IMG/VR virus record: IMGVR_UViG_3300021090_000013
Coordinates: 1 to 64,000 of that record
DNA length: 64,000 bases
Direction: 5' to 3' (one strand)
DNA from: a virus
Shown: positions 14,623 through 64,000 of the stretch, one piece after another
How positions within the stretch are numbered: the first letter of the stretch is position 1
Layout: each line of letters starts with the position of its first letter
The notes under the pieces: model-generated
Told to the model about the DNA's origin: nothing
Database searches by the model: none
Seen by the model: only the letters and a program-made list of their open reading frames with translations
Translations under genes and position numbers: made by a program

Positions 14623-14633
14623 AGGAGAGAGAA

Positions 14634-17850: not shown

Positions 17851-17859
17851 GGTGATTGG

Positions 17860-18686: not shown

Positions 18687-18690
18687 GCCC

Positions 18691-48308: not shown

Positions 48309-48380
48309 CCTCTCACCGTGGCCTCTCACCATGGCCACCACGGCAAGCCCACCAAAAACCGACCGTAACCTGTAGCTGCG

Positions 48381-48629: not shown

Positions 48630-50203
48630 TGGGCGGCCAGCAGCTAGCGCTTCCGCTCGGCTCCCCGCGGGCAGCCCTCGCGCCGAAGATCCGAAACTCC
48701 ACCAACGCCGCCGTCTACGAGGCCGGGAGCTTCAACGCGCGCACGATGGGCTGGCGCGCGCCCACGGTCAGCCCGAACAGCGCGATCCTCTACAGCCTCG
48801 CGGCGCTGCGCGATCGTTCGCGACAGGCCGTCCGAAACAACGGCTTCGCCAAGGGGATCATCGACAAGCTCGTCACCAACATCGTTGGGACCGGCATCAA
48901 GCCCCTTTCGAAGGCCGCGGACGCCGATTTCCGGAAGGCCGTCCAGGCGCTCTGGCTACAGTGGACCGACTTCTCTGATGCGGACGGAGTCCTCGACTGG
49001 TACGGCCAGCAGGCGCAGGCGGTCCGGTGCTGGCTGGAGGCCGGCGAGGTCTTCGTTCGGTTGCGGCAGCGACTCCCCGAGGATGGCCTGCCCGTCCCAC
49101 TGCAGGTCCAGGTCCTCGAGCCAGAGATGTGCCCCTACACCTACAACGGCACGAGGGGCGCCAACAAGATTCGCGCGGGGATCGAGTTCGACCCGGTCGG
49201 GCGCCGCGCGGCCTACTACTTCTACGCCTCGCAGCCGGGCGCCCTGCTCGACTGGAATGTCACCGACCTCCGTCGGATTCCGGCCGAGTCTGTCATCCAC
49301 TTGTTCGACCCCTTGCGCGCCGGCCAGATCCGTGGGCTTCCCCACCTCACCCAGGCCCTGATCAAGCTCTACGAGCTGGACAAGTTCGACGACGCGGCGT
49401 TGCTGCGTCAGCAGATCGCCAATCTCTTCGCAGGATTTGTGAAGCGGCCCGCCGATGGAGGCTCCGATGTCCATCCGCTCACCGGCCTGGCCGCCGACGC
49501 CACCACAGCCGAAGGCCGTCCCGTGCTGAGCCTCGAGCCGGGGATCTTCCAGGAACTTTCGCCGGGCGAGGAGGTGGAGTTCTCGGACCCTCCCGATCCG
49601 CCCTCGACCTACCCGAGCTTCATGCGGCAGCAGCTCATGAGCATCTCGGCCGCGACGGGCGTCCCCTACGAGGTCCTGACCGGCGACATGGCGGGGCTGA
49701 ACGACCGGGTGATGAGGGTCGTCCTGCACGAGTTCCGCCGGATGATCATCTCCCGGCAGCACCACATCGTGGCCTTCCAGCTTTGCCGGACCGTCTGGGG
49801 CGCCTGGCTGGACCGCGTGGTCCTCAGCGGAGCGCTGCCGATTCCGGCCGCCGCCTACGCTGTGGACCCGCGGCCATGGTCCGCCGTCAAGTGGATGCCG
49901 CAGGGGTGGCCCTACATCCACCCGGTGCAGGACGTGACCGCGACCAAGGATGCGATTCGAGCCGGGTTCACGTCGCGCTCGGCCGCCGTCTCCGAGCAGG
50001 GCGAGGACTCCGAGGTCATCGACGCCGAGCAGGCCGCGGACAACGAGCGTGCCGACGAGCTTGGACTGATCTACGAATCAGATGGTCGGCAAGCGGCCAA
50101 GGCGCCGGCGAGCGGTCCTCCAGTGCCCATGGCCGAGCCAGACGATCCGGCCACGAACCCCGACGATCCGCCGGCGGACCCCGCCGCTGCAGCAGGAGCA
50201 TAA
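48629..50203 (+). CDS. Portal protein, lambda gpB-like (module B)
   Basis: 524 residues. Family landmarks: SILYSLAALRDRSRQAVRNNGFAKG, IVGTGIKPLSKAADADFRKAVQALW, VQVLEPEMCP, G-I-E-F-D-P-V-G-R-R-A-A-Y-Y-F, LRAGQIRGLPHL and MRQQLMSISAATGVPYEVLTGD. The C-terminus is a disordered, acidic, proline-rich tail. This is the second, unrelated-lineage portal of the window. Confidence 0.92.
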   Translation: MGGQQLALPLGSPRAALAPKIRNSTNAAVYEAGSFNARTMGWRAPTVSPNSAILYSLAALRDRSRQAVRNNGFAKGIIDKLVTNIVGTGIKPLSKAADADFRKAVQALWLQWTDFSDADGVLDWYGQQAQAVRCWLEAGEVFVRLRQRLPEDGLPVPLQVQVLEPEMCPYTYNGTRGANKIRAGIEFDPVGRRAAYYFYASQPGALLDWNVTDLRRIPAESVIHLFDPLRAGQIRGLPHLTQALIKLYELDKFDDAALLRQQIANLFAGFVKRPADGGSDVHPLTGLAADATTAEGRPVLSLEPGIFQELSPGEEVEFSDPPDPPSTYPSFMRQQLMSISAATGVPYEVLTGDMAGLNDRVMRVVLHEFRRMIISRQHHIVAFQLCRTVWGAWLDRVVLSGALPIPAAAYAVDPRPWSAVKWMPQGWPYIHPVQDVTATKDAIRAGFTSRSAAVSEQGEDSEVIDAEQAADNERADELGLIYESDGRQAAKAPASGPPVPMAEPDDPATNPDDPPADPAAAAGA

Positions 50204-50207
50204 CGAC

Positions 50208-51548
50208 ATGCGCGAATGGTTCAAGGTGAAGCTCCAAGCGGATCCGGCGGTCGCCGAGATCCACATCATCGACTACATCGGTGGCTGGATCGACCAGACG
50301 CTGAACGAGATGTTCGGCGAGACCGTGACGGTCACGGCCAAGGCATTCGTACAGGCGCTCGCCGAGATCCCCGAAGCGGTCAAGACGCTGCGGGTGCATG
50401 TGAACTCGCCCGGTGGCGACCTCTTCGGAGCGGTCAACATCGCGAACGCCTTGCGGGCCTGGGCCACGAAGGGCCGCAAGGTCGAGACGATCGTGGATGG
50501 GATGGCCGCGAGCGCCGCCTCCCTGGTGGTGATGGCTGGCGACCCCGTGCGGATCTCCGACAACGGCCTCCTGATGATCCACAACCCTTGGACGGTGGCC
50601 ATGGGCAACGCCGCCGAGATGCGCCAGGCGGCCGACGAACTGGACAAGTTCCGCTCCGGCAACATCATCCCGACCTACCAGTGGCACACGGAACTCAGCG
50701 CCGAAGAGATCGCGGCGTTGATGGACGCGACCACGTGGATGGACGCCAAAGAGGCGGTCGCGATGGGGTTCGCGGATGAGGTGGTCCAGGGGCTGCGGGC
50801 CGCGGCGAGCATCGACCCGCGGACCCTGGCCAAGCTCACGATCCCAGAAAAGTACGCCGACCGCGTGAAGGCCTTGCTCGCCCCGAAGGCCGAACCCACA
50901 GCAGCGGAGGCGAAAGGAGAGCCCATGAAGGTAGCGGCCGCGATGTGTTGCACGTGTTGCGAAGGTGGCCAGTGTTGCTCTTGCTGCCGCGGTGGCGGCG
51001 GCACGGGGTGCGCCTGCGAGGACACCGGCGCCGACTGCGCTTGCTGCAAGTCTGGCGAGTGCTGCGCCTGCTGCAAGGGTGACCAGTGCTGCCCCGACTG
51101 CATGTCCTCCGCGATGGCCGCGGCCTCCGCCCGGGCCGCCATCATTCCGGCCGCCGATGCCGAGATCGTGAAGGCCTGCGGAGAGGCGGGGCTTGATCTC
51201 GCCTTCGCCCAGGTCCTCATCGGCGAGCACGTCGCGTCCGACGCGCTGCCCGAGCGGATCGCCTCGGAGAAGCAGGCGCGGGCAACCGCCAAGGCGCGCG
51301 AGACCGAGATCCGCGCCCTCTGCGCGAAGGCGAAGCAGCCCGACCTGGCCGACGGCTACGTCGCCGGCGGCATGAAGATCGAGCAGGTGCGCCAGCAGCT
51401 CACCCTCATCACGGCCAAGCTCGACAAGGTCGAGATCGATGGCGGGCTCGAACCGGACCACGGCTCCCGCCGCAACCAGATCATCGACATCGCGGCGGTC
51501 TACGCCGAACGTAACAGGCTGGGCGATCCGGCCAAACGGAAGGAGTAA
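50208..51548 (+). CDS. Head protease (ClpP-type) fused to scaffold
   Basis: 446 residues with AGGAG before ATG. Residues 1-230 are a ClpP-fold protease: LRVHVNSPGGDLFGAVNIAN, DGMAASAASLVVMAGD with the nucleophile Ser, LLMIHNPWTVAMG with the His, and the Asp region near LMDATTWMDAKEAVAMGFAD. Residues 240-446 form the scaffold, whose start is also an internal start codon. Between them lies a very cysteine-rich stretch. Corresponds to lambda gpC/Nu3. Confidence 0.88.
   Translation: MREWFKVKLQADPAVAEIHIIDYIGGWIDQTLNEMFGETVTVTAKAFVQALAEIPEAVKTLRVHVNSPGGDLFGAVNIANALRAWATKGRKVETIVDGMAASAASLVVMAGDPVRISDNGLLMIHNPWTVAMGNAAEMRQAADELDKFRSGNIIPTYQWHTELSAEEIAALMDATTWMDAKEAVAMGFADEVVQGLRAAASIDPRTLAKLTIPEKYADRVKALLAPKAEPTAAEAKGEPMKVAAAMCCTCCEGGQCCSCCRGGGGTGCACEDTGADCACCKSGECCACCKGDQCCPDCMSSAMAAASARAAIIPAADAEIVKACGEAGLDLAFAQVLIGEHVASDALPERIASEKQARATAKARETEIRALCAKAKQPDLADGYVAGGMKIEQVRQQLTLITAKLDKVEIDGGLEPDHGSRRNQIIDIAAVYAERNRLGDPAKRKE
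50925..51548 (+). CDS. Nested scaffold protein (Nu3-like) with cysteine-rich N-terminus
   Basis: 207 residues, in frame with the protease. ATG 50925 has AAAGGAG 5 bases upstream, better than many starts in the window, so a separate scaffold is very likely. Residues 8-63 hold about 20 cysteines in C-C-x-C-C and C-A-C-C groups with G, K, E and D between. The remainder is helical, scaffold-like (KARETEIRALCAKAKQPDLA). The cysteine block is unusual in a scaffold and could bind several metal ions or form disulfides. Confidence 0.7.
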   Translation: MKVAAAMCCTCCEGGQCCSCCRGGGGTGCACEDTGADCACCKSGECCACCKGDQCCPDCMSSAMAAASARAAIIPAADAEIVKACGEAGLDLAFAQVLIGEHVASDALPERIASEKQARATAKARETEIRALCAKAKQPDLADGYVAGGMKIEQVRQQLTLITAKLDKVEIDGGLEPDHGSRRNQIIDIAAVYAERNRLGDPAKRKE

Positions 51549-51553
51549 GGCAC

Positions 51554-51940
51554 ATGACGGCATTGAACGAAGGGCAGTACACCGGCGAGTTCCTCATCGA
51601 GGAGCCCGCCCCGAGGATCAGCCGGGAGACCGTCACCGTGACGGTCGATACGGCCACCAAGCTGGAGCCGGGCCACGTCATGGCCCAGCTCTCGGCGGAC
51701 AGCAAGTTCGTCGAGTACGACAACTCCGGCACCGACGGCTCCGAGGAGGCAGCGGGGATCCTCTACAACGAGTGCGACAACTCGGCCGGCGAGGCCCCGG
51801 CAGACTTTACAGCGGTCGTCGTGGTCCGTCTCGCGGCCGTCCGCAAGGCCGACCTGCAGTGGAACAGCGGGGTCGACGCGAGCGGCAAGACGGCGGCGTA
51901 CGCCGATCTCAAGGCCCTGATGATCTTGGCGCTCGACTAA
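51554..51940 (+). CDS. Head decoration protein, lambda gpD-like
   Basis: 128 residues; gene directly after the scaffold. Recognised by the family blocks QYTGEFLIEEPAPRISRETVTV, LEPGHVMAQLSADSKFVEYD, EAAGILYNECDNS and VVVRLAAVRKADLQW. Trimers stabilise the expanded head by binding the gpE-type capsid lattice. Confidence 0.88.
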   Translation: MTALNEGQYTGEFLIEEPAPRISRETVTVTVDTATKLEPGHVMAQLSADSKFVEYDNSGTDGSEEAAGILYNECDNSAGEAPADFTAVVVVRLAAVRKADLQWNSGVDASGKTAAYADLKALMILALD

Positions 51941-51976
51941 GGGCGCCGCCCCCAAAAGGAGAAGGAGAACAAGCCA

Positions 51977-52975
51977 ATGCCGAACTTGGACGTCTTCCGG
52001 AGCGACGCTTTCAGCCTCGTCTCCCTCACCGCCGCCGTCCTGAAGGCGCCCTACAAGCCCGGCCGGATCGGGGCCTCGGGCCTCTTCCGCGAGCGCGGAA
52101 TCGCGACCACGACCGTCGTCGTGGAGGAGAAGGACGGACGGCTCTCCCTGATTCAGACCTCTCCGCGCGGCGGTCCGCCCACCACGATCGGTCAACAGAA
52201 GCGGACCGCGCGGCCCTTCATCGTGCCCCATCTCGAGCGCATGTCCACGGTGCTCGCCGACGAAGTCCAGAACGTGCGGGCCTTCGGTTCGGAGAACGCC
52301 GAGCAGGCGGTGCAGGAAATCGTGAACGAGAGGCTCGCCGATCTGCGGTCGATGCACGAGGTGACGCTCGAACACATGAGGATCGGAGCCATCAAGGGCG
52401 TGGTCATCGACGCGGACGGTTCGACGCTCTTCGATCTGTTCAGCGAGTTCGGGGTCGAGCAGCAGACGGCCACGCTCGACGTCGGCGACACCGCGGACAT
52501 CAGGAATCAGGCGGTCGCGATCCAGCGCCAGATCGAGTATGCGCTCGGCGCCGAGCCGCTCTCGAGCTTCCGCGCCTACTGCGGAGACGACTTTTTCGAC
52601 GCACTGGTTGGCGCCACCAGCGTCAAGGCCGCCCTCCAGTACCAGGAGTCCGCGCTGTTGCGTGGGAACCTGCGCCAGGGGTTCGAATTCGGCGGCATCA
52701 CCTGGGAAAACTACCGCGGCCGGATGCTCTCCACCTCGACTCCGTTCTTCCCCGACGACGAGGCGTACGTCGTGCCCGAAGGGACGAGCCTCTTCAACAC
52801 CTACTTCGCCCCGGCCGACTTCGTCGAGACGGTCAACACGCTCGGCCTGCCCATCTACGCGAAGCAGGCGCCGGACCCGGAATTCAACCGCTGGGTCAAG
52901 ATCCTGACCCAGAGCAACCCGCTGGCGCTGTGCCTGCGGCCGCGTGCGGTCGTCAAGGTCACCCTCGGGACGTAG
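51977..52975 (+). CDS. Major capsid protein, lambda gpE-like (module B)
   Basis: 332 residues with AAGGAGAAGGAG upstream. Typical gpE-family features: DAFSLVSLTAAVLKAPYKPGRI, RPFIVPHLERMSTVLADEVQNVRAFG, EHMRIGAIKGVVIDADGS and a late FNTYFAPADFVETVNTLGLPIYAK. Same HK97 fold in principle but not recognisably related to the capsid protein at 5845 by sequence. Confidence 0.93.
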   Translation: MPNLDVFRSDAFSLVSLTAAVLKAPYKPGRIGASGLFRERGIATTTVVVEEKDGRLSLIQTSPRGGPPTTIGQQKRTARPFIVPHLERMSTVLADEVQNVRAFGSENAEQAVQEIVNERLADLRSMHEVTLEHMRIGAIKGVVIDADGSTLFDLFSEFGVEQQTATLDVGDTADIRNQAVAIQRQIEYALGAEPLSSFRAYCGDDFFDALVGATSVKAALQYQESALLRGNLRQGFEFGGITWENYRGRMLSTSTPFFPDDEAYVVPEGTSLFNTYFAPADFVETVNTLGLPIYAKQAPDPEFNRWVKILTQSNPLALCLRPRAVVKVTLGT

Positions 52976-52982
52976 GCCCACC

Positions 52983-53309
52983 GTGGGCGACCTGAGGCCG
53001 GAGTTCGAAGCCGCGTCGGCTCCATTCGGGGTCGACGCGGTGGTGACTCCGCCCGGCGGATCCCCGGTGGAGACGAGAGTCATCTGGCTACCGCCGATCA
53101 CCGTGGAGCACCCGACCGGCACGGAGCTGCGCCGTGCAGAGCCCAAACGCGTTCTTGCGCTTCCCCTCGACGGCCTCGGCGAGGTGCCGCGCGGGACGAT
53201 CGTGACGGCCCCGGAGTATGAAGGGGCCGAAGCGAGCGACTGGAAGATCGACGAAGCCGAGCGCGTCGACTTCGACCACTACCGGGCCACAGTCTTGCCG
53301 GCGGGGTAG
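52983..53309 (+). CDS. Head-tail connector, gpFII-like
   Basis: 108 residues from GTG. A small beta-barrel protein with G-V-D-A-V-V-T-P-P-G-G-S-P near the front and LDGLGEVPRGTIVTAP, W-K-I-D-E-A-E-R-V-D near the end, as in FII-type head-tail attachment proteins. Position after the capsid gene is right for this role. Confidence 0.7.
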   Translation: MGDLRPEFEAASAPFGVDAVVTPPGGSPVETRVIWLPPITVEHPTGTELRRAEPKRVLALPLDGLGEVPRGTIVTAPEYEGAEASDWKIDEAERVDFDHYRATVLPAG

Positions 53310-53312
53310 GAC

Positions 53313-53762
53313 ATGCCCAGTACACGCGAAGCGGCGATCAGCGAGCTGAGGGACCGGCTTGAGGCCATCGCCCAAGCCAACGGCTTCGGCACCGACGCCG
53401 GGGCGCTGATCTTCCTCGGCGAGTCCCCGACCCTGGGGCCCGACGATCCGACCGCGGCGATCGCCATCGACGTCCAGGAGGACATCCCCAGCTTTCAGGG
53501 CGAGCACGTAGTAGTCACCGTCCCCGTCGACGTGCAGGCCCTGGTGAAGGCCGACGCTGACGACCCCTGGATGACGGTCGAGGCCATCGTCACGGACATC
53601 AAGACCGCCGTCGAGACCGATCGCGACCTGGGCGGCACCTTGATCGCTCGCGGCCTCATGCGGGGGACCGTGCGCCCGCTCGATCGCGAGCCCGGCAGCC
53701 AGTACGTGGGGGCCGCGGTGCAGTACCGGCTCCTCATGAAAGAGAGCTGGGGGAGCCCGTAA
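53313..53762 (+). CDS. Tail terminator/completion protein (gpU-like)
   Basis: 149 residues. Pattern: AAISELRDRLEAIAQANGFG, D-D-P-T-A-A-I-A-I-D-V-Q, VVVTVPVDVQALVKADADDPW and M-T-V-E-A-I-V-T-D-I-K, fitting the minor tail/tail completion group of lambda-type phages. It overlaps no neighbour but the next gene starts within one base of its stop. Confidence 0.7.
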   Translation: MPSTREAAISELRDRLEAIAQANGFGTDAGALIFLGESPTLGPDDPTAAIAIDVQEDIPSFQGEHVVVTVPVDVQALVKADADDPWMTVEAIVTDIKTAVETDRDLGGTLIARGLMRGTVRPLDREPGSQYVGAAVQYRLLMKESWGSP

Positions 53763-54299
53763 ATGGTCACCATCCGCCTCGACAACGCAGACATCAAGGC
53801 TGGGCTCGCGTCCATGCGCGCGAAGTTTCCCCAGGCTGTCCGGCGTGCGCTCAAGCGCGCCGGCACCAGCGGCCGGGCCGAAATGGCGAGAGTGATCGCC
53901 GCGGACACCGGGCTCCCATCCACTCGCGTGAAGAGGGAGATCACCGTCAGGAGCGACGACGTCTCGATGGCGCTGACGACGGCGGGCTTCCGGATTCCGC
54001 TACTCGACTTCCAAGCGCGGGGGCCGGAGCCGTCCCGTGGGCGCGGCCGGGGCGTGTCGTATCGGGCCAAGTCCGGCCGCGTCCAGCTCCCGCACGCGTT
54101 CATCGCGACGATGGCCAGCGGCCACCGGGGAGTGTTCCAGCGGTCGGAGCTTTCGCTCTCCCACTCGTCCATCAGAGAACTGAAGGGGCCATCCATCGCG
54201 CACGTCTTCGAGGTCCTCGCCCCGCAAGGAATCGCAGCCGCCAGCGAGTCGTTCATGAAGAACGTCAAGAGCGAAATCAAATTCGCCATGACCAGGTAA
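53763..54299 (+). CDS. Minor tail protein, gpZ-like
   Basis: 178 residues. The sequence FPQAVRRALKRAGTSGRAEMAR, then the LPSTRVKREITV block and the late PLLDFQARG and HAFIATMASGHRGVFQR, marks the gpZ family of tail completion proteins. In lambda gpZ positions the tape measure/DNA end for injection. Confidence 0.85.
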   Translation: MVTIRLDNADIKAGLASMRAKFPQAVRRALKRAGTSGRAEMARVIAADTGLPSTRVKREITVRSDDVSMALTTAGFRIPLLDFQARGPEPSRGRGRGVSYRAKSGRVQLPHAFIATMASGHRGVFQRSELSLSHSSIRELKGPSIAHVFEVLAPQGIAAASESFMKNVKSEIKFAMTR

Positions 54300-54310
54300 G
54301 GAGGAAGCCC

Positions 54311-54919
54311 GTGCCTCAACCTTTCGAGATCGTTGCTCAGCCCTTCACTTTGTGGGTGGGCGACGTCGGCGACGTCTTCCCCACGATCGACGAGGATCCC
54401 GGCGCGGGGTGGACCAAGATCGGAACCTCCGGCGACCTCAACTACACCGAGGATGGCGTGACGATCACGCACAACCAGACGGTGGAGAAGTTCCGCGCCC
54501 TCGGCAGCACCGGTCCGCGCAAGGCGTTCCGCACGGAAGAGGAGCTGCACATCACCCTCTCTGTCGCTGACGTCTCGCTCGAGCAGTACGCCCAGGCCCT
54601 GAACGACAACACCGTCACCACCGAGCCGCCAGACACCGGGACGGCGGGTTCCAAGAAGCTCGGCCTCTCCCGCGGCCTGAGCGTGGCGCAGCATGCGCTC
54701 CTCATCCGCGGCGCCGCTGCGTCTCCCTACGGCGAGGGGTGGGTCGCGCAGTACGAGGTCCCGGTCGTCGTCCAGGTCGGTGAGCCAGAGGTCGTCTACG
54801 TCAAGGGCGAGCCCGCCGCGCTGGCGCTGGAGTTCGAGGCGCTCGAGGACCCGGACGCCGTGAGCGATGACGAGCGCTTCGGCCGCCTGATCGTGCAGAA
54901 CACCGAGCCCGGGACGTAG
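54311..54919 (+). CDS. Major tail tube protein (module B)
   Basis: 202 residues from GTG with AGGAGG upstream. Tube features: WTKIGTSGDLNYTEDGVTIT, TVEKFRALGSTGPRKAFRTEEELHITLSVADVSLEQ and a C-terminal beta half. A different subfamily from the 145-residue tube protein of module A. Confidence 0.8.
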   Translation: MPQPFEIVAQPFTLWVGDVGDVFPTIDEDPGAGWTKIGTSGDLNYTEDGVTITHNQTVEKFRALGSTGPRKAFRTEEELHITLSVADVSLEQYAQALNDNTVTTEPPDTGTAGSKKLGLSRGLSVAQHALLIRGAAASPYGEGWVAQYEVPVVVQVGEPEVVYVKGEPAALALEFEALEDPDAVSDDERFGRLIVQNTEPGT

Positions 54920-55123
54920 GTGGGGGGCTTGCCCGGCGATCAGGTGGACGCGTTGCGTCGCGAGATCGCGTCGCACAAGTCCGCGATCCGCTGGCACCGG
55001 TCGGCCCTCCAACGTGCCGCCGAAGCGCTGGCCAGGCTCCAGCTCAGCGGCACCGGCATCAAACCAGTCTTCAAAGGCGAAGGGAAAACCCCATGGCCAA
55101 TCTCCTCAACCTCGACACCCTGA
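54920..55123 (+). CDS. Small coiled-coil protein after tail tube
   Basis: 67 residues from GTG directly after the tube stop. LRREIASHKSAIRWHRSALQ and ALARLQLS form a basic helical hairpin of a kind seen near tail genes in other phages. It overlaps the chaperone gene by 31 bases; the overlapped tail is not conserved-looking. Confidence 0.5.
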   Translation: MGGLPGDQVDALRREIASHKSAIRWHRSALQRAAEALARLQLSGTGIKPVFKGEGKTPWPISSTSTP

Positions 55124-55476
55124 CCGAACGGAACACCGTCACGGTCGACGGCGTGCCATACGACCTCATCAATCCAGGCCAACTCTCGATCCTGGACCAA
55201 CACCGCGTTTTGAAGTGGGGAGCACGCGTCCAGGAGCTCCACGCAACCGTGGAGAACCTCTCCGATGCGGCGATCACGGAGATGGGGGAACTCCTGGACC
55301 GCTTCTGCCGGCTCGTGCTGCCGGCGCCTCCAGAGGTCCACGACAGGGTCTCCGACAACCAACGGCTGAAGCTGATGTCGGTTTTTACCGAACTCCTGCG
55401 GGGGGAGACTCCGGCGCCCGCGGGGGCAAGCGCCGCGCCGGTCGCCGACGAGACGTCGACTGGGGAGAGCAAATAG
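55093..55476 (+). CDS. Tail assembly chaperone, short form (module B)
   Basis: 127 residues. Reads VDGVPYDLINPGQLSILDQHRVLKWGAR, followed by a helical part and a low-complexity end (APAGASAAPVADETSTGESK), the general build of G-type tail chaperones. It sits between tail tube and tape measure. The downstream frame encodes a T-like domain that is probably added by frameshift. Confidence 0.75.
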   Translation: MANLLNLDTLTERNTVTVDGVPYDLINPGQLSILDQHRVLKWGARVQELHATVENLSDAAITEMGELLDRFCRLVLPAPPEVHDRVSDNQRLKLMSVFTELLRGETPAPAGASAAPVADETSTGESK

Positions 55477-55748
55477 CGCGCCTGGTGCGCTTCTACGGGG
55501 GAAATCCGATGACCTGGCTGGCCGAGACACCGACGTGCGTGGTCAACGCGCACCTTGCGATGCTCGGCCGGCTCACGGCCGAGGACCGACTTGCCGCCGC
55601 CATGGCCTCCGGCGCGGGAAGGTTCATGAAGCCGGCGCCCATCCGCAGCCAGATCGCAGCATGGAACAGGGCCGCGCAACGCGGCGACGGCAGCAAGGGC
55701 GGCTCTGGCGTCCCCCGGGGCACGGGCATCAAGGTCGTGAAGCGGTGA
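55404..55748 (+). CDS. Tail chaperone T-like extension in -1 frame (module B)
   Basis: The -1 frame stays open from within the short chaperone to 55748 and encodes DWGEQIARLVRFYGGNPMTW then VVNAHLAMLGRLTAEDRLAA, a T-like helical domain. No canonical X-XXY-YYZ heptamer is in register; a run of six Gs (55400-55405) is the only obvious slip candidate. An internal ATG (55509, after GGGGGAAA) could start the T domain separately. The exact junction is not fixed. Confidence 0.6.
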   Translation, partial: GDSGARGGKRRAGRRRDVDWGEQIARLVRFYGGNPMTWLAETPTCVVNAHLAMLGRLTAEDRLAAAMASGAGRFMKPAPIRSQIAAWNRAAQRGDGSKGGSGVPRGTGIKVVKR

Positions 55749-56356
55749 AGGTCTGCAAGAAACGCGGCCATCAATATTCCGCAGAGCGCAGGCAGTGTCC
55801 TGTTTGCCGGCTACTTTCTCGGCGCACCTCAGAAGCCGGTAGGCGCGAGCAGATCCGCGTCCAGAAACGGACATGGGATGCCAATCGTGAGAAAAGGAAA
55901 GCCTCTGCTCGCAGGAATTACCTCTCCCATCGCGAGGCTTGGGCGGAAAGGACTCGCAACCGGAGATCGGCCAACCTGGAAGCTTATCTGGCAAATTGCC
56001 GCTCCTATCAACAAGCCCATCGAGAACGCCACAACGAGCACGTGGCCAAATACCAGAAGGCCCATCCTGAAAAGCACGCCGAGCGCGAGGCGCGACGGCG
56101 CGCCCGAAAGCGCGCCTCGTTGATCGAACCATTCTCGTGGGTCGAGTGGTGCGCAGTGGTTGACTTCTACGGTGGGCTTTGTGCCTACTGCGCCCAACGT
56201 CCGTGGGAGCACAAAGAGCACGTCGTGCCGCTAGCTCGTGGCGGTGCGCATGCCCTCTGGAACCTCGTCCCATCATGCAAGCGTTGCAACTACCGAAAAC
56301 ACACTAAGACCTGGGCGCCGCTCAAGCGCCATCCAGCGATGGCGGAGGCTGCGTAA
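55745..56356 (+). CDS. HNH homing endonuclease
   Basis: 203 residues from GTG overlapping the chaperone stop. N-terminal zinc knuckle (CKKRGHQYSAERRQCPVC), a long basic middle with arginine/histidine helices, and an HNH nuclease: GLCAYCAQRPW, HVVPLARGGAHALWNLVPSC, KRCNYRKHTKTW. The G+C content is lower than around it. A free-standing mobile endonuclease inserted between chaperone and tape measure. Confidence 0.88.
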   Translation: MKVCKKRGHQYSAERRQCPVCRLLSRRTSEAGRREQIRVQKRTWDANREKRKASARRNYLSHREAWAERTRNRRSANLEAYLANCRSYQQAHRERHNEHVAKYQKAHPEKHAEREARRRARKRASLIEPFSWVEWCAVVDFYGGLCAYCAQRPWEHKEHVVPLARGGAHALWNLVPSCKRCNYRKHTKTWAPLKRHPAMAEAA

Positions 56357-56357
56357 G

Positions 56358-58781
56358 ATGTCCGAACGGCTCGCCCGCGGCGTCATCGAGATCGCGATCG
56401 ACGACAAGGACGTCCGGGCCGGCCTCGCCCGCGTGACCGGCGCCTCCGACAGCGCGGCGCACTCGGTCGCCGGCATCAGCGACGGGATGAGGACCTCCTT
56501 CGGGGCGGTGGCCACCGTCCTGGGCGGAGCGGTCACAGCCATCGCGGGAATCACCACCGGAATCGTGGCCCTGGGCATCCACGGGTCTGACGTTGCCGAC
56601 GTCCAGGAAGCCTTCTCCGGGCTCTCGGAGGGGATGGGCTCCACCGCAGACGTGATGCTGGGCGTGCTTCAGGAAGGGACCCAGGGCACCATCTCGAACT
56701 TCGACCTCATGAAGATGTCGAATGCGGCCCTCGGAAGCGGGCTCATCACCTCTTCCGAGAGCATGGCCACGCTGGCGGCTGGGGCGAAGCTGCTCGCAGA
56801 TAGCACCGGAGGCGATACCGCCGAAGCCTTCGACACCTTGACCACGGCGATGGCAAGTGGCCGCACGGCCGCCCTCAAGCACCTGGGCATCTTCGTCGAC
56901 AGCAAGGTGGCGGTCGAGGACTACCGCAAGTCCACGGGCCACCTCACCGGCGAGCTGACTGACGGCCAGCGTGCGACGGCGCTCAGCGAGGCCGCCCTGC
57001 GGGCGCTCCGAAAGCAGGTCGACGAGAACGGGATCTCCGTAAAGGACTTCTCCGACAACGTCGCCCGCGTCAAGGTCGCCGTCCAAAACTGGACCGACAG
57101 CCTGGCCGTCGCCATTGCCAAGTCCCCAGTCTTGTCCGCCGGGATGGGGGTGCTGGGCACGGCCATCACGAACGCCTTCGGCTCGAACCAGCAAGCGCAA
57201 ACGCAAGCCCTCGCGCGTCATGTCGGGAGCTTCGCCATCGGCATAGTGAACACGGGCATCGTCCTTGGCACGTTCGCCTCGGTAGCCAATGCCGTCTTCT
57301 CCGGGGTCCGGGTCGTCGTGTTGTCCGTCCTCGAAACCTTCGTGGTCCTCGCCACCGGTATCGTCGGAATCATCAATGAGCTTGTCCACGGGGCCAGCAC
57401 AATCCCGGGGTTCAGCCTTGCCCTGGGCGGAGTGGAGGCATCGACTACCGCGGCGACACTCGCGCTGGATGAGATGGCGCACGGGCTGACCGAGCAGATC
57501 GGAGAGGCGGCGAAGGGAGTCGCCGGCAACAACGAGCTCGGCCAGAAGATCACCGCGACCACCGGCACCTTCATGCTCATGCGGGACGCGATGGTCAAGG
57601 CCCAGACCGAGCAGCTCAAGGTGACCGCGACGGCCCCGCACCCGGCGATCAAGAAGGTGGGCGACGAGGCCGGGCTCACGGCCGCGCAGATGCTGGCGCT
57701 GGCCGAGGCCGAGCGCACCGCCACAGATCGCGCCTTTGCGATGAACCAAACGCTTGAGGCCAAGGGACAGGAGCTTCAAGACAACCTGACGGCGTCGACT
57801 CTTAGCGGCGTGGATGCGCGGCTCTTTCAGATCAATCGAGAGCGCGAAGCCGCCCTGGCGAGCCTGGCGCAGTACGCGCGCTCCTACCCGGTGTGGTACG
57901 CGGCGCAAGTCCTCGCGGTGCAACTGACCTACGGCAACATGACGGCGGCCGCGCAGGGCCACTTCACCACCGTGAAACAGGCTGCCGAGGCCGCCGGTTT
58001 CGCGTTGCGATCAACACTCCAGGCCACGTCCGCCAACGCCACGACCCTCTACGCCGACATGCTCGCAAGTGGGCAATTCACCTACGCCCAGCTCGTCGCG
58101 GCCGGCCAGGCATCAGCCAATGCCCAGCAGTTGGCTAACGGCGGGACGGCGCTGACTCATGATGAGCAATTGCGAGAGACGGCCCGAATCGCGGCCGAGG
58201 CATACGCAGCGATCACGAGAGCTGCTGTAGCCTCGGACGCCGAGATCGAGCGGGCCCACAGGGCATCGGCCGACGCCCAAAAGGCGGTGGACGAGGCCGT
58301 GCTCAGGGCCCGACTCGGCCATGCAGCAATGGCCCTCGACGCCGCCTCCTCAATGATCGGCTCCATCTTCTCGCACAACAAGTCGACGGCGATCGCGATG
58401 GCCTTGATCGACACCGCGTCGGCCATCGTCAAAGCCATCGCTGCGACCCCCTTGCCCTGGGGCCTGATCCCGGCCGCGGCGGCCGCTGCCATGGGCGCCG
58501 CCCAGATCGCGACGATTCGGAACACGAACCCGGGCCACGCCCTAGGCACGCCGCGGCTCGACTTCGCCGACTTCGGCTCGGAGTCCTTCCAGCCGCTGCA
58601 CAACCAGGAGGCCGTCATCCCCCGTGGCGGCGGACACCTGTTGGCCGGCGAGATCGCTGACTCCATGGGTGGTAGCGCCGAGCTGGGGGCCAAGCTCGAT
58701 CGAATCGCGGACCTCCTCGAACGACAGCCAGCCGAGATGCGCAAGGCCTACCGCAACGCGTTCCTGCTGGACACGGCCTGA
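56358..58781 (+). CDS. Tape measure protein, module B
   Basis: 807 residues, ATG with GGAGG upstream. Hydrophobic helix pairs near 45-75 (VATVLGGAVTAIAGITTGIV) and 300-370 (FAIGIVNTGIVLGTFASVAN; VVVLSVLETFVVLATGIVGI), alanine-rich coiled coils, and a late IAMALIDTASAIVKAIAATP and AAAAAMGAAQIATIRNTNPG that match the end of many tape measures. Shorter than the module A protein, so the tail should be shorter. Confidence 0.9.
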   Translation: MSERLARGVIEIAIDDKDVRAGLARVTGASDSAAHSVAGISDGMRTSFGAVATVLGGAVTAIAGITTGIVALGIHGSDVADVQEAFSGLSEGMGSTADVMLGVLQEGTQGTISNFDLMKMSNAALGSGLITSSESMATLAAGAKLLADSTGGDTAEAFDTLTTAMASGRTAALKHLGIFVDSKVAVEDYRKSTGHLTGELTDGQRATALSEAALRALRKQVDENGISVKDFSDNVARVKVAVQNWTDSLAVAIAKSPVLSAGMGVLGTAITNAFGSNQQAQTQALARHVGSFAIGIVNTGIVLGTFASVANAVFSGVRVVVLSVLETFVVLATGIVGIINELVHGASTIPGFSLALGGVEASTTAATLALDEMAHGLTEQIGEAAKGVAGNNELGQKITATTGTFMLMRDAMVKAQTEQLKVTATAPHPAIKKVGDEAGLTAAQMLALAEAERTATDRAFAMNQTLEAKGQELQDNLTASTLSGVDARLFQINREREAALASLAQYARSYPVWYAAQVLAVQLTYGNMTAAAQGHFTTVKQAAEAAGFALRSTLQATSANATTLYADMLASGQFTYAQLVAAGQASANAQQLANGGTALTHDEQLRETARIAAEAYAAITRAAVASDAEIERAHRASADAQKAVDEAVLRARLGHAAMALDAASSMIGSIFSHNKSTAIAMALIDTASAIVKAIAATPLPWGLIPAAAAAAMGAAQIATIRNTNPGHALGTPRLDFADFGSESFQPLHNQEAVIPRGGGHLLAGEIADSMGGSAELGAKLDRIADLLERQPAEMRKAYRNAFLLDTA

Positions 58782-60373
58782 TGGGCGAGACCGTCACGAT
58801 CGTTCCGCGCGTGGAGATGATGTTCGGCTCGGACTGGGTTGACGTGTCCGACGACGTCGTGTCCCAGGTCGAGGCCGCGTGGGGCATCCACGGCGCCAAT
58901 CCGAAGCAGCGCATCGCGGACCCTGGCACCATGCGTTTCCAGCTCGACAACTCCAGCCAGAACAGCGGTGGCGTGCGCGGCTATTACACCATCGGGCATC
59001 CCGACGCCCGCGCGGGGTTCGACGTCAAGACGCCGGTCCGATTCGTGCTGCACAACGACCTGCTCGGGGACAAGGTGCGGTGGGTGGGCACCATCGAGGG
59101 CGCGAAGCCGGGCGCCGGAGTCAAGGACCAAACGGTCGACGTGTCCTGCGTCGACTGGCTGGAGGAGGCCGCCCGGGCGAAGATCAGCGGTCTGGGCGTC
59201 CAGGTCGACATCCAATCCGACGTCCTCTTCCAGCTCCTCATCGACGCGGCGGACACGCCTCCGCCAGGCGGCACGCTGGTCGGGACCGGTTCCGACGTCT
59301 ACGAATACGCCCTCGACAACGTCCAGGACGAGACGACGACACTGATCGAGGCCTTGAACAAGCTCCTGCTTAGCGAGTTCGGGCTTTCCTACGTGTCGGC
59401 CGGCGTTGGGGTGTTCGAGGGCCGGCGGCTTCGCAGCGGCGGTGGCGGCGTGCAGCTCGCGCTGGACGAGGACGAGAACCTCATCACTCTGTCCACGGTG
59501 AACGGGAGAGACGAGGTAATCAACCACGTCCTGGTGTCCGTCCACCCGCGCCGCACGGACCCTGTCTATGCGGTCCTCTTCAACCTCGGCTCCTCTCTCG
59601 ATATCGTGCGCGGGACGGAGATCACAATCAGTTGTCCCTACCGCGACCAGAACCAGCAGGCCCAGCGCGTGGGCGGCCTCGACATGCAGGACCCGGATGC
59701 CGGCGAGGGCGACTACTCCTTCAACGCCGCCGAGGACGGGTCGGGGAAGGACCTCACGGAGCAACTGACCGTGACGGCGGTCTTCGGCGGGAACTCCGCA
59801 GCGGTGACCATCGCCAACAACGGGCCCAACGACGGCTTCGTCCCTCCGAACGGGCTGAAGCTGCGCGGGATCGGCCTATACGACTTCGAGCCTGTCATCG
59901 CGGACCGTTCGGACGTCGACAGCATCCTGGCCTACGGAGAGTGCCCGCTGGGCTATGACATGCCCTACCAGAGTTCGCCGACGAACGCGGGCGACCTGGC
60001 GCTCTTCATCCTCGCGCTGAACAAGACGGCTCGCGTGCGCGCCCAGAAGGTGACGTTCATCGCCAACTGGAGCTACACGGAGTGCGAGCAGGCGTTCAAC
60101 CTCGAGATCTCCAACCGCGTGTCTGTGACCTCGGCGCCCTCAGGGCTCGCCGCCGAGCCGTACTTCGTCAACGGCTTCCGGATGGTCGCGCACATGAGCG
60201 GCCTGGTGACCGTGACGTTAGACCTGGCGCCGACGGACACAGCCGAGTATTGGCAGCTCGAGGTGGACGGCAGGACCGAGCTCGACGAGACGACGGTGCT
60301 CGGCTACGGGCTGTTCACCGCCGGCTGGATCCTCAACAGCTCAGAGCTTGGGTCTCAGACGTTTTTGAACTGA
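58781..60373 (+). CDS. Tail hub/baseplate protein (module B)
   Basis: 530 residues, TGATG overlap. Homologous to the second part of the module A hub (15232-17850): both share an early beta domain with F/W-x-L/M-D-N-S-S/T, a D-W-L/M-E/D-E-A-A block, the G-G-L/M-D-M motif, and a nearby run with N-A-A/Q-E-D-G. The module B version lacks the two lectin-like domains. It probably carries the fibre-like proteins encoded next. Confidence 0.7.
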   Translation: MGETVTIVPRVEMMFGSDWVDVSDDVVSQVEAAWGIHGANPKQRIADPGTMRFQLDNSSQNSGGVRGYYTIGHPDARAGFDVKTPVRFVLHNDLLGDKVRWVGTIEGAKPGAGVKDQTVDVSCVDWLEEAARAKISGLGVQVDIQSDVLFQLLIDAADTPPPGGTLVGTGSDVYEYALDNVQDETTTLIEALNKLLLSEFGLSYVSAGVGVFEGRRLRSGGGGVQLALDEDENLITLSTVNGRDEVINHVLVSVHPRRTDPVYAVLFNLGSSLDIVRGTEITISCPYRDQNQQAQRVGGLDMQDPDAGEGDYSFNAAEDGSGKDLTEQLTVTAVFGGNSAAVTIANNGPNDGFVPPNGLKLRGIGLYDFEPVIADRSDVDSILAYGECPLGYDMPYQSSPTNAGDLALFILALNKTARVRAQKVTFIANWSYTECEQAFNLEISNRVSVTSAPSGLAAEPYFVNGFRMVAHMSGLVTVTLDLAPTDTAEYWQLEVDGRTELDETTVLGYGLFTAGWILNSSELGSQTFLN

Positions 60374-60380: not shown

Positions 60381-60665
60381 ATGGCTTGGACCGCACCAAG
60401 ATCTTGGGCTCAGGGCCAACTCGTCGAGGCTGCCGATCTGAACGAGCAGGTGCGGGACAACCTCGCACACCTGAAGTTGCTCGTGAACGACGACGGCAAG
60501 ATCCCGATCCTAAGTGACACCTATCTAGCCGATCTCTCGGGAGCGAATCTCACAGGAGTCGCCAAGATCGCCGCGAATAACGACTTCACGGGGGTAAACA
60601 ATTTTGGCTTTGGCATAGGTGCTCGCCTGATCCTTCCGACCGGTTCCGATCGATGGGCGACATGA
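60381..60665 (+). CDS. Small fibre-like protein with attachment motif
   Basis: 94 residues. Begins AWTAPRSWAQGQLVEAADLN followed by E-Q-V-R-D-N-L, the attachment motif shared with the next gene and with 18231. The rest (AANNDFTGVNNFGFGIG) resembles the following protein's next segment, so the two arose by duplication. Ends in ATGA overlap with the repeat protein. Confidence 0.65.
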   Translation: MAWTAPRSWAQGQLVEAADLNEQVRDNLAHLKLLVNDDGKIPILSDTYLADLSGANLTGVAKIAANNDFTGVNNFGFGIGARLILPTGSDRWAT

Positions 60666-61606
60666 GCTGGACGACGCCGCGCACATGGGTCGACGGGGAA
60701 GTGACCACGGCGGCTCAGTTCGATGCCCACATTCGCGACAACCTAACGGTGCTGAAGGTCACACGCAACGCCGAGGGGCGGCTGATAGAACTCTCTAGCA
60801 CGACCATTGAGGACCTCACCGCACCCGATAAAGGCATGGCGGGGGTTGGGAGTAACAACAACTTCACGGGCGGGTCGACGAAGTTCAGCGGAGCCGGAAG
60901 GTTGGTTCTTCCCGTCGGTGCGGACAAATACGTGTCATACCCCTTCGGCCTTCGTTCGGGATTCTGGGTCGAGGGTGACTATCTGCACCACGTCCAGAGC
61001 GACCAGACGACAGAATGGCATTATCTCGGCGAGTACGTATCGACGCCAGCGGGCGCAGTGCCAGGCTCTATCTGGGTCGAGGGCAATTACCTCCACTACA
61101 TCGACGCCGACGGCGACGAGCGGCGGTGTCTCTCGGCCGGCGTAACGGGACACGCCGACGCGGCTGCGGTCGGCGGCTCGACATGGGTCGAGACGTTCGT
61201 TCACTGGATCCGTGAAGCCGGGGCCCTGGAATGCCCGGGACATGCCGACGTCGCCCATGCGGACGGGTCCGAGCACAACGACGGTCACGGGGACCTCGCG
61301 CATGCGGACTCGCACGCGGACTCCGGCCATGCGGACTCGCACACGGATGGAGCGCACGCCGACGAGCACTTCGATGTTGCGCACGCCGACGACCATGACG
61401 ACCACGGCGACACGCTCGACACGCCCAACCACGCCGACGAGCACTTCGATGTTGCGCACGGTGACGTGCACGTGGACTACCACTTCGACACGCATGCCGA
61501 CGAACCGCATAGCGACGACCACAACGACTCGCACACCGACTGGCATTTCGACCACGAGGATTATTCCGACTCCCCGACGCTGAACCAGCCAACGGTGGTT
61601 GTGTGA
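60662..61606 (+). CDS. Tail tip protein with His-Asp repeats
   Basis: 314 residues; ATG 60662 (ATGA overlap) preferred over ATG 60653. Residues 1-30 are the fibre attachment motif (SWTTPRTWVDGEVTTAAQFD, then R-D-N-L). Residues ~100-190 hold three W-V-E-G/T-x-Y/F-x-H units typical of phage fibre shafts. Residues ~193-305 are dominated by H-A-D, H-x-D and D-x-H units: about 24 histidines and over 30 aspartates. Such a segment should bind divalent metals. It ends Y-S-D-S-P-T-L-N-Q-P-T-V-V-V. The next gene is a radical SAM enzyme started in GTGA overlap. Confidence 0.75.
   Translation: MSWTTPRTWVDGEVTTAAQFDAHIRDNLTVLKVTRNAEGRLIELSSTTIEDLTAPDKGMAGVGSNNNFTGGSTKFSGAGRLVLPVGADKYVSYPFGLRSGFWVEGDYLHHVQSDQTTEWHYLGEYVSTPAGAVPGSIWVEGNYLHYIDADGDERRCLSAGVTGHADAAAVGGSTWVETFVHWIREAGALECPGHADVAHADGSEHNDGHGDLAHADSHADSGHADSHTDGAHADEHFDVAHADDHDDHGDTLDTPNHADEHFDVAHGDVHVDYHFDTHADEPHSDDHNDSHTDWHFDHEDYSDSPTLNQPTVVV
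61238..61575 (+). repeat. His-Asp repeat region
   Basis: Codes for irregular H-x-D repeats. At DNA level a 31-base unit (start CACGCCGACGAGCACTTCGA) occurs exactly twice, at 61355-61385 and 61430-61460, and shorter GCGGACTCGCAC units repeat around 61300-61340. Recent duplications within the array are therefore visible. Confidence 0.8.
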
Positions 61607-62814
61607 GTGTCGAGGTGAACATCGTTGGGACGCGGTGCAAGATGGCTTGCGCCTATTGCTACCAGTTGCCCGTACGCGTGGCGACGAACAACCGTGCACT
61701 GCGCCTCCTCGACCATTCGGCGATCCGTGCGGCGGTCGTAGCGGCGAACCCCGGCCCTGCCGGCTTCAGCATCTTTGGAGGCGAGCCGCTTCTCGCGGCG
61801 ATCGAGGATCTCGAAAAGCTCTGGACCTTCGGCCTCGAGCGCTACGGGAAGAATGGAGTCCAGACGAGCGGCTCGGAGATCGGGGAGGAGCACCTCGCGC
61901 TGTTCAAGAAGTACCGGGTCCACGTCGGGTTCTCCATCGACGGGCCAGGGGAATTGAACGACGCCCGGCATGCCGGCACGCCAGACCAAACCCGCGCGGC
62001 CACAGCTCATTCCGAGGCGATGCTGAGGCGGTGCCTGGCGGAGAAGGTCGGCGCGTCCCTGATCGTGACCCTACACCGCCTCAACGCAGCGCCCGATCGA
62101 CTCCCGCGCCTTCTCGCCTGGTTCCGCGATCTCGACGCCGTTGGCCTCTCCAGCGTGCGGCTTCACCTCCTGGAGCGAGATGGGCCAGGCGGCGAACGCC
62201 TTGCGCTGACATCGGAGCAGAACACGGCCGCGCTCTTCGCCGCTCGCGACCTGGAGCCGTCTCTCGCTCGACTAAAGTTCGACGTCTTCGCCGACATCGA
62301 GAAGAAGCTCCTCGATCCGACTACGTCGGCGACGTGCGTCTGGAACGGCTGCGATCCCTGGACCACGCCGGCAGTCCAGGGGATCGAGGCCGATGGCTCG
62401 CGGGGCCTATGCCAGCGCGTCCACAAGGACGGGAAGCAGTGGCGTCCGGCGGACCAGCACTCGAACATCCGCCAGGTGGTCCTCTGGAACACGGCGCAAG
62501 AGGACGGCGGCTGCCGCGGCTGCCGGTTCTTCCTGCAGTGCGGCGGACACTGCCCGGGCACTGCGATAGGCGGTGATTGGCGCAACCGCTCAATCGACTG
62601 CCCGACGTGGTTCGCGCTCCTGGAGCGAACGGAGCTGGAGATGGTGGCCCGCGGAGAGCAACCGGCCTCACTCGCCGCCGACCTTGAGGCGCGGATTGAA
62701 CGCTCCCTCGTCGGAGCCGCTGCGCCGAGCGGCCATGGGGACGCACACGGAGACTCTCCACACGGTGACGATCACGGAGACCATACGGACGCGGGCGACG
62801 AGGGGCACGCATGA
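61603..62814 (+). CDS. Radical SAM/SPASM enzyme
   Basis: 403 residues from GTG in GTGA overlap. The radical SAM cluster motif C-K-M-A-C-A-Y-C (residues 12-19) is followed by Y-Q; GFSIFGGEPLL is the GGE motif that holds SAM; GFSIDGPGELNDAR is the third core element. A SPASM-type C-terminal region has C-V-W-N-G-C, L-C, then C-R-G-C-R-F-F-L-Q-C-G-G-H-C and a later C, enough for auxiliary clusters. The last 28 residues are H-G-D/H-T-D rich, resembling the preceding tail protein. Such enzymes modify peptides or proteins; the His-Asp tail protein is the likely substrate (inference). Confidence 0.82.
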   Translation: MSVEVNIVGTRCKMACAYCYQLPVRVATNNRALRLLDHSAIRAAVVAANPGPAGFSIFGGEPLLAAIEDLEKLWTFGLERYGKNGVQTSGSEIGEEHLALFKKYRVHVGFSIDGPGELNDARHAGTPDQTRAATAHSEAMLRRCLAEKVGASLIVTLHRLNAAPDRLPRLLAWFRDLDAVGLSSVRLHLLERDGPGGERLALTSEQNTAALFAARDLEPSLARLKFDVFADIEKKLLDPTTSATCVWNGCDPWTTPAVQGIEADGSRGLCQRVHKDGKQWRPADQHSNIRQVVLWNTAQEDGGCRGCRFFLQCGGHCPGTAIGGDWRNRSIDCPTWFALLERTELEMVARGEQPASLAADLEARIERSLVGAAAPSGHGDAHGDSPHGDDHGDHTDAGDEGHA

Positions 62815-64000
62815 CCGACCTTCCCCGTGAGTGGTGCCGGCCACCACAGTGGCTCGCTGGCGATTCGCGCGAGGCCTGGGAACCCGTCCTCCGTGCCGCC
62901 CAGGCCGCGTGGTCAGGGCTCGAGCTCGTCTCGATCACCGAGGGCCTGCGCGAATCCGCCATCGTCCATCTCGAGGCTGACGATCTCGCGCGCGCCGGGG
63001 CTGACGTCTCCCGGGTAGGCTTGGCCCTGTCGGTGCTGGAGCACAAGGAAGGCTCCTTTCGTGCGGTCGTGCACCATCCCCGCCTGGCCGCGGCCTGGCA
63101 TGCGGCCTGGGCTGCCGGCGATCACGAAGCGGTCGGCGTGCTGCTCGGCTTTCCGGCCTGCTGCCGCGCCTTCTTCTCCCGCGAGTGGGTCGCCGCCGGC
63201 TCCTACCGCGACCTCACCTTCGCCATGGACACGGTTGATGGCCCGTGGGAGGCGAACACGATGCTGCGCTGGCTCGGCGTCCGGCTGGTGCCCCACCTGC
63301 CCTGCAGCAGCTCGTGCGCCGAGACAGTCGCCCAGGCGCGGGCCTACCTGGAGGCGGGGCGCAGGGCCGGGGTCGACGTTGCGTCCCTGGAGACCGTCCT
63401 CAGGCTGCCAGTGACCCACGATGCGGCCAACGAAGTGGCGATCGTCAGCACGCCGCACTTCCGGTTCCTGGCAGGCGCCGACCGTGGGGCGAAGCGGGCC
63501 GTGGCCCGGAGATCCCAGGAGGAGCCCGGGAGCTGGACCGACAACGGCTTCGCGTCCCACGCGGCCATGGACCAGGCCCACGGGGCAATCCTGAGAGTGG
63601 TCGGCTGGGAGGCGCGGTCCGGGCTCGACCTTGGCTGCGGTGATGGTCGACTCTTATGGAGGGCCGCCCGTCCAGCCAGCGGGCCCTGGGATGGGGTCGA
63701 GTCCGACCCGGGCAGGGCCGAACGCGGGAGCCGCCGCTACGGGCCGCTGGTCACGGTGACCACCGGGAGGATCCAGGACGCCGACCTCTCGGCGGCGACC
63801 TACGACGTCGTCTTCTTGATGCCCGGCCGCCTGGTGGAGATGGACCCGCTGGAGGCCGCCAGGATCCGGGCCGCGCTGCCGGGCCTCGGGCGCCGGCTCG
63901 TCTTGTACGCCTACGGAGACTGGCTCGCAGACGGGCTACCGGCCCTGGCTGAGCGAGCAGGCCTGGGCGTGGTCGGAGACGTCGCCACCTCGCCCGGCAC
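62811..64000 (+). CDS. DUF483-like protein fused to methyltransferase (partial at right edge)
   Basis: 396 codons seen, no stop before the edge; ATGA overlap with the radical SAM gene. Residues ~85-250 contain VGVLLGFPACCRAFF, the G-F/Y-P-x-C-C signature of the DUF483 group, and a further C-S-S-S-C pair. From about residue 260 a SAM methyltransferase domain begins (SGLDLGCGDGRLLW is motif I, then D-G-V-E-S-D-P-G, later Y-D-V-V-F-L-M-P-G). Together with the radical SAM gene it looks like a modification system. Not a standard phage virion gene. Confidence 0.65.
   Translation, partial: MTDLPREWCRPPQWLAGDSREAWEPVLRAAQAAWSGLELVSITEGLRESAIVHLEADDLARAGADVSRVGLALSVLEHKEGSFRAVVHHPRLAAAWHAAWAAGDHEAVGVLLGFPACCRAFFSREWVAAGSYRDLTFAMDTVDGPWEANTMLRWLGVRLVPHLPCSSSCAETVAQARAYLEAGRRAGVDVASLETVLRLPVTHDAANEVAIVSTPHFRFLAGADRGAKRAVARRSQEEPGSWTDNGFASHAAMDQAHGAILRVVGWEARSGLDLGCGDGRLLWRAARPASGPWDGVESDPGRAERGSRRYGPLVTVTTGRIQDADLSAATYDVVFLMPGRLVEMDPLEAARIRAALPGLGRRLVLYAYGDWLADGLPALAERAGLGVVGDVATSPG

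Follow-up and report, generated by a model that had tools for sequence, protein, structure and literature searches.

The cassette described here lies at the 3' end of the window, a 64,000-nucleotide stretch of viral DNA corresponding to bases 1-64000 of the 73,294-base record IMGVR_UViG_3300021090_000013. It consists of three genes, which encode a tail protein rich in His-any residue-Asp (H-x-D, or HxD) units, a radical S-adenosylmethionine (radical SAM) enzyme with SPASM-type cysteines, and a DUF483-like protein fused to a methyltransferase domain. This trio is widespread and conserved. The sequences show its gene order, a family-wide association, a motif rule in the tail protein, the enzyme family, and its cysteines. 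The radical SAM enzyme probably crosslinks each H-x-D unit of the tail protein into a three-residue cyclophane, a substrate and a product both proposed from sequence patterns. The association, the motif rule, the matches of the enzyme to peptide maturases, and a substrate-like tail on the enzyme itself together point to a protein-maturation cassette with cyclophane chemistry.

All three genes are on the plus strand, and in the open reading frame (ORF) analysis each overlaps the next by four bases. The overlaps are GTGA at 61603, between the HxD and radical SAM genes, and ATGA at 62811, between the radical SAM gene and the third gene. An earlier reading made from the sequence alone (the sequence-only reading) had described these overlaps, a SPASM-type enzyme, and about 24 H-x-D units, and each of these observations held. 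The HxD protein contains 25 H-x-D units. Its C-terminal part (residues 163-310, numbered from 60653) holds 25 units, whereas 20,000 shuffles of its own residues gave 5.2 on average and never more than 13. The single unit outside the dense domain is at 61151-61159. The mechanical ORF of this gene begins at 60653, but the start is most likely ATG 60662 because this codon forms an ATGA overlap with the stop of the upstream 94-amino-acid gene. Counterparts in locus L002 and in Thermus phages share 48-56% aligned identity with the protein, and relatives carry up to about 90 HxD units.

Profile scans yielded 32 genome loci and 65 viral loci, to which the window and phage records were added and from which one duplicate was removed. 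Close relatives are the 62 radical SAM loci scoring over 200 bits, and controls are 38 more distant radical SAM loci from the same scans. The close relatives include Sphaerisporangium, Sphingomonas, Chengkuizengella, a myxococcal metagenome-assembled genome (MAG), a proteobacterial MAG, and a Diapherotrites archaeon. A protein with Hx[D/N] units adjoins the radical SAM gene in 58 of the 62 close loci and in none of the 38 controls (Fisher p 2e-23, a value that overstates the independent evidence since many viral loci are near relatives of one another). DUF483 is present in 60 of the 62 close loci and in no control. A better argument than the p value is given by the taxonomic spread and by changes in gene order, which is HxD-rSAM-DUF in 47 loci (rSAM, radical SAM), HxD-DUF-rSAM in nine, and different in two others. 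That the enzyme is associated with an HxD protein is close to certain. The sequence-only reading had paired the two, a pairing that would be in doubt if most relatives of the enzyme lacked an HxD protein; the reverse was found.

The four exceptions (L044, L046, L055, and L086) are short contigs or contig ends, and L046 retains an HxD remnant at its first bases. In L006 and L051 the HxD density is diluted by long N-terminal parts of the protein. L083 alone combines intact surroundings with a seeming lack of substrate, yet a protein with 16 HxN units and one HxD unit lies beside its second radical SAM copy. Several genes are duplicated in this locus: radical SAM at 4320-5471 and 8001-9176, and DUF483 at 6165-7070 and 7076-7951, with the HxN protein at about 9180-9860.

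In most loci the HxD protein is of a phage structural type. HxD proteins of the bacterial cassettes in Sphaerisporangium (L008), Sphingomonas (L009), and the myxococcal MAG (L006) are unlike phage tail proteins, and that of Sphaerisporangium has many Y-x-D units. Two further loci, L225 and L226 (the records of L110 and L103), carry a far more divergent radical SAM lineage (MNTILWYMLLDCPTGCEYCF..., 149 bits) that has the same HxD tail and an adjoining large HxD/N protein.

A reverse scan, in which the enzyme was not used, looked in viral contigs for runs of four HxD units spaced five residues apart and returned at least 120 stretches. Among the matches listed, non-repetitive HxD-rich ORFs mostly adjoin this radical SAM gene or share a record with one. 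The rest of the listed matches are simple DNA repeats, a stretch whose composition differs (L156), a truncated contig (L183), and a collagen-like family. Proteins of this last kind (L122, L151, L173, and L179) belong to a 365-amino-acid class in which about 13 HxD units come after a GPP stretch resembling collagen. The record of L179 has a radical SAM gene, located outside the stretch around the HxD-rich gene.

Motif statistics were taken from 51 non-redundant HxD domains with 10,094 residues. Asp or Asn stands two positions after His in 98% of cases. The third position is Asp 1663 times, Asn 74 times, and Glu twice, with Ser at four of 1777 His residues and HxH at six. Asp or Asn also follows at +2 for 33% of Tyr, 32% of Phe, and 36% of Trp residues, compared with about 3-9% for non-aromatic residues. 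In all, 198 of 595 Tyr, Phe, and Trp residues have Asp or Asn at +2, against 50±7 when the residues outside the Hx[D/N] units are permuted. Each residue is enriched about fourfold (Tyr 112 vs 29, Phe 55 vs 14, Trp 31 vs 7), and, counted domain by domain, 44 of 47 lie above their own expectation (p 2e-10). Among the other residue classes tested, none showed such an excess of Asp or Asn at +2.

The same preference appears at position -2 of free Asp residues, those without a His, where Tyr occurs 74 times, Phe 49, Asp 26, and Trp 16, with the rest in single figures. Residues one step from His are scarce at this site (Asn 4, Gln 4, Leu 2, Pro 2, Arg 2). Tyr codons are no closer to a His codon than those of Asn, Gln, Leu, Pro, and Arg, and Phe and Trp codons lie further off, so the pattern suggests that an aromatic ring has been selected for. 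At the other end of the unit, three domains are rich in HxN, and in L059 and L073 HxN outnumbers HxD. Triceptide (three-residue cyclophane) substrates follow the same aromatic-x-Asp/Asn rule as the resulting His/Tyr/Phe/Trp-x-Asp/Asn pattern, which argues against plain metal ligation. In the products of three-residue cyclophane-forming enzymes (3-CyFEs), an aromatic ring at position i is bonded to C-beta of the residue at i+2, which is Asn, Asp, Ser, Arg, or Ala (PMC11002830). Known products include Trp joined to Asn or Asp (OscB), Phe to Asn, and Tyr to Asp (YxdB), and in HaaB and YhhB the C2 of His is joined to Ala or Arg, always from i to i+2 (PMC11002830).

The enzyme contains the radical SAM motif CxxxCxxC (C12, C16, and C19) and the SPASM arrangement C250-x14-G265-x4-C270, C304-x2-C307-x5-C313-x3-C317-x15-C333. 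These cysteines are invariant in an alignment of 44 sequences. This alignment, and that of 30 DUF483 sequences used below, leave out proteins of annotated phage records. The SPASM model TIGR04085 scores 20.5 against a cutoff of 27, and the SPASM assignment is therefore by motif only. For all 44 aligned members the best NCBIfam matches are the DynA, AmcB, and YhhB maturases and the anaerobic sulfatase maturase, joined by GrrM/OscB in 43. By these matches the enzyme is placed among the SPASM peptide maturases, a placement that leaves its reaction unfixed. The AlphaFold model has a predicted local distance difference test (pLDDT) score of 89 and a predicted template modeling (pTM) score of 0.87. 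Its nearest solved folds are the anaerobic sulfatase-maturating enzyme (anSME) anSMEcpe (4k39 and 4k36) and the peptide maturase ChlB (9gm3).

The last 26 residues of the enzyme are built of HxD units like those of the presumed substrate, a feature that the sequence-only reading did not mention. Such a tail, with at least two units, is present in 45 of 61 family members. It is missing from the chromosomal relatives L006 and L008-L010 and from most viral loci ordered HxD-DUF483-rSAM. Docking of the tail in the enzyme's own active site found no support, as the tail is unstructured in the AlphaFold model. No second radical SAM gene was found in the record.

The third protein contains an LGFPACC motif at 63144-63164 and a methyltransferase domain from about 63612 (PF13649, E 8.8e-7), as expected from its earlier description as a GFPxCC-methyltransferase fusion. 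Its DUF483 assignment is less direct: the window's protein falls below the PF04467 cutoff (12.1 vs 25 bits), although 27 of 30 relatives match at an E value of 0.1 or lower (best 9.4e-8). P-x-CC and a further cysteine, C169, are invariant in the 30 relatives, and an upstream H-L-P-C is nearly so. In the structure model (pLDDT 92) the methyltransferase half matches solved methyltransferases; the structure comparison found no solved relatives of the DUF483 half. Methyltransferase and DUF483 are fused in most relatives. The Thermus phages, Chengkuizengella, and the archaeon do without the methyltransferase half, so that the DUF483 part is what stays constant and methylation is optional.

In the proposed mechanism, the radical SAM/SPASM enzyme would act on the adjoining HxD-repeat tail protein. 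The ring of the first motif residue (His, or Tyr, Phe, or Trp in relatives) would be bonded to C-beta of the third residue, Asp or Asn. Each H-x-D unit would thereby become a three-residue cyclophane, as in triceptides, and the tail protein would bear about 25 small rings. The ringed segment may be stiff and protease-resistant, perhaps at the end of a tail fiber or baseplate protein. As a constant partner, the DUF483-like protein would probably help to handle the substrate or act in a later step. For versions fused to a methyltransferase, the simplest guess is that the ringed Asp or His becomes methylated. In phages the HxD protein likely has a structural role in the tail. In its broader form, the proposal covers phages whose hosts are unrelated (those of Thermus and many uncultured viruses) as well as some bacteria and archaea. 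A dedicated radical SAM enzyme with a DUF483 partner would install tens of His-x-Asp (or Tyr/Phe/Trp-x-Asp/Asn) rings and so turn part of a structural protein into a multi-cyclophane polymer, in some cases methylated. This we favor only slightly over its negation.

Several observations weigh against the cyclophane proposal. The window's HxD protein has just one non-His unit, YSD, so that the aromatic rule rests on the relatives. The enzyme scores far below the curated 3-CyFE cutoffs (AmcB 57.4 vs 425, YhhB 42 vs 445, GrrM/OscB 33 vs 310), and the NCBIfam matches cover mainly the radical SAM core; for both reasons the reaction is not assignable by homology. The modeled fold resembles anSME and would equally permit other oxidative chemistry. 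The presumed substrate is a 314-amino-acid structural tail protein, unlike the short leader-bearing precursor of a ribosomally synthesized and post-translationally modified peptide. No protease or exporter was found near the cassette, whose neighbors are tail genes and DUF483. No radical SAM gene was detected in the records of the HxD-rich L122, L151, and L173. No report of a His-Asp cyclophane was found in the literature searched.

Among the alternatives, a different reaction on the same protein holds up best, and it is still unlikely. Here the enzyme would modify the HxD protein by epimerization, by hydroxylation or other oxidation of Asp, by methylation of His with the fused methyltransferase, or by crosslinks between units. 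The presence of anSME, an oxidase of Ser or Cys, among the nearest solved folds fits this, as do the distance of every NCBIfam assignment from its cutoff and the frequent methyltransferase-DUF483 fusion. Epimerization or simple oxidation would leave the aromatic residue at position 1 and the Asp or Asn at position 3 unexplained. Two specific reactions are excluded as the general one: thioether formation of the sactipeptide or ranthipeptide kind, since Cys is missing from 37 of the 51 domains, and formylglycine formation, since the sulfatase motif (C/S)x(P/A)xR is in none of them.

Somewhat less probable again is a metal-binding tail-tip element, with the HxD domain holding iron, zinc, or calcium and the radical SAM/DUF483 pair loading or tuning the site. 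His and Asp at i and i+2 are classic ligands, their imidazole and carboxylate groups would stay available, and Asp makes up about 20% and His about 17% of the domains. Iron binding by HxH motifs is known from other phage spikes, and on this basis the sequence-only reading had proposed a metal-loaded tail tip. The substitutions fit poorly: His is replaced mainly by aromatic residues, Asp by Asn and not Glu, and one locus is almost exclusively HxN. Glu is nearly missing at the third position even though it is a good metal ligand one mutation from Asp. Unit spacing is irregular (5, 4, 3, 6, 9...), HxH is nearly missing, and metal loading needs no radical SAM enzyme. Metal loading as the main function is weakened accordingly, while the other half of that earlier suggestion, a modified tail protein, draws support from the association and the motif rule as read from the sequences.

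The remaining alternative takes phage DNA as the target of the module and the HxD protein as an accessory with a DNA- or metal-related function. DNA modification was suggested for Thermus phages from cyanobacterial homologues near deazapurine genes (PMC11437467), but this alternative is very improbable given the position of the genes among tail genes, the constant Hx[D/N] companion in chromosomal and archaeal relatives, the peptide maturases among the enzyme's best matches, and the copy of the HxD motif in its tail.

The sequence-only reading knew of no described phage system of this make-up. The three-gene order that it had proposed to look for in phage databases occurs in the Thermus phages Cumys and phiMa and in many viral loci. 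A three-gene "rSAM module" of these two phages was in fact reported in 2024 as a possible DNA-modification locus, by analogy with cyanobacterial neighborhoods, with similar loci in prophages; in the passages of that paper searched for selected terms, the repeats, a protein substrate, and cyclophane chemistry are not mentioned (PMC11437467). The radical SAM enzymes of Cumys, phiMa, and phiLo are 46-47% identical to that of the window (tblastn) and are accompanied by a DUF483 protein, which in these phages is without a methyltransferase domain. Cumys and phiMa have the HxD gene directly upstream, whereas in phiLo the HxD proteins are nearby on the opposite strand. There are 54 HxD units in the 343-amino-acid protein of Cumys, 53 in phiMa, and 72 in phiLo. 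The window has the linked radical SAM enzyme, DUF483 protein, and third protein that define the Cumys/phiMa module, with its DUF483 domain below the Pfam cutoff.

Triceptide systems (XncB, OscB, YxdB, HaaB, and YhhB) are alike in having a SPASM radical SAM enzyme that adjoins an aromatic-x-Asp/Asn protein, with i to i+2 geometry, and their enzymes are among the closest curated families by score. The cassette differs in its phage structural substrate with tens of His-dominated motifs, in the additional conserved DUF483 partner, and in scores far below cutoffs. In the His-Xaa-Ser (HXS) system, radical SAM enzymes likewise mature a repeat protein, whose units pair His at i with a polar residue at i+2. 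Two radical SAM proteins (HxsB and HxsC) and HxsD belong to that system, whereas the cassette has one radical SAM enzyme and DUF483, Asp or Asn in place of Ser, and a phage setting. The HxsB model TIGR03978 is a weak match (30.6 bits vs 370), and the cassette falls outside the HXS definition. The anSME enzymes share the SPASM architecture along with the fold, but their target motif is absent from the partner domains and TIGR03942 scores 51 bits vs 349. Iron-binding HxH tail tips differ in the motif itself, with HxH at six of 1777 His residues in the HxD domains.

Small bacterial natural products are the known setting of peptide crosslinking by radical SAM enzymes. If the proposal is correct, enzyme-installed carbon-carbon crosslinks would occur in virus particles, and triceptide chemistry would extend beyond peptide natural products. 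Protein crosslinking by such chemistry in virus particles is not described in the literature searched, and no link between phage tails and triceptide-type chemistry was found there, with subscription journals mostly outside that literature. The cassette would represent a new route to a durable tail fiber, with tens of sites per chain. A role for DUF483 would become testable, enzymes able to form rings at many positions of a single protein would be at hand, and the DNA-modification suggestion would have a better-supported alternative. Because Cumys and phiMa are cultured, the central prediction would be directly testable on purified virions.

Table 1. Features of the cassette and its neighborhood, in positions of the window and its record.
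Feature	Position	Strand	Description
Tape measure	56238-58781		PHROG tail match
530-amino-acid protein	58781-60373		Between the tape measure and 94-amino-acid paralogue genes
94-amino-acid paralogue	60381-60665	+	Paralogous to the HxD protein's N-terminal part (MAWTAPRSWAQGQ...RDN...); upstream, same operon
HxD-repeat tail protein	60662-61606	+	314 amino acids if started at ATG 60662; attachment-like N-terminal domain followed by GSxWxEGxxLxYID modules and the HxD domain
Dense HxD domain	61241-61570	+	24 of 25 H-x-D units, with a single Y-S-D unit last; proposed substrate of crosslinking
Radical SAM/SPASM enzyme	61603-62814	+	403 amino acids; PF04055 E 8.7e-10, above cutoff
Disordered C-terminal tail of the enzyme	62734-62790	+	Five substrate-like H-x-D units (HGDAHGDSPHGDDHGDHTD); pLDDT below 50
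DUF483-like protein fused to class I methyltransferase domain	62811-64028 of the record (62811-64000 inside the window)	+	End beyond the window
Fourth gene of the operon	64025-64546 of the record (L001:3726-4247)		173 amino acids; several CxxC pairs (zinc-ribbon-like)
Further relative of the N-terminal domain of the HxD protein	65253-65774 of the record		Downstream of the 173-amino-acid gene

The cassette is surrounded by tail genes in the record, the part from base 60300 to 73294 being designated L001. The 94-amino-acid protein encoded immediately upstream is 39% identical to the HxD protein over 94 amino acids and is likely a virion-attachment type protein. A 95-amino-acid version is encoded at the equivalent place in L002. 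This locus also has a gene similar to the 173-amino-acid CxxC gene at the matching place (8468-9025).

A second, related tail module is located at 11-19 kb in the record. There, the counterparts of the genes flanking the cassette (15184-17850 and 18231-18686) are separated by only one 123-amino-acid gene, which suggests that the cassette is an accessory element inserted into an otherwise conserved tail locus. The record seems to hold two related phages head to tail (window positions 1-19356 and about 46000-60373, and L001), with two tape-measure/tail modules. Near-identical pieces of the early region are also present twice: 20089-20415 matches 69098-69439 at 90%, and 22386-22538 matches the last 153 bases of the record at 98%. 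The record would then represent tandem prophages or a joined assembly.

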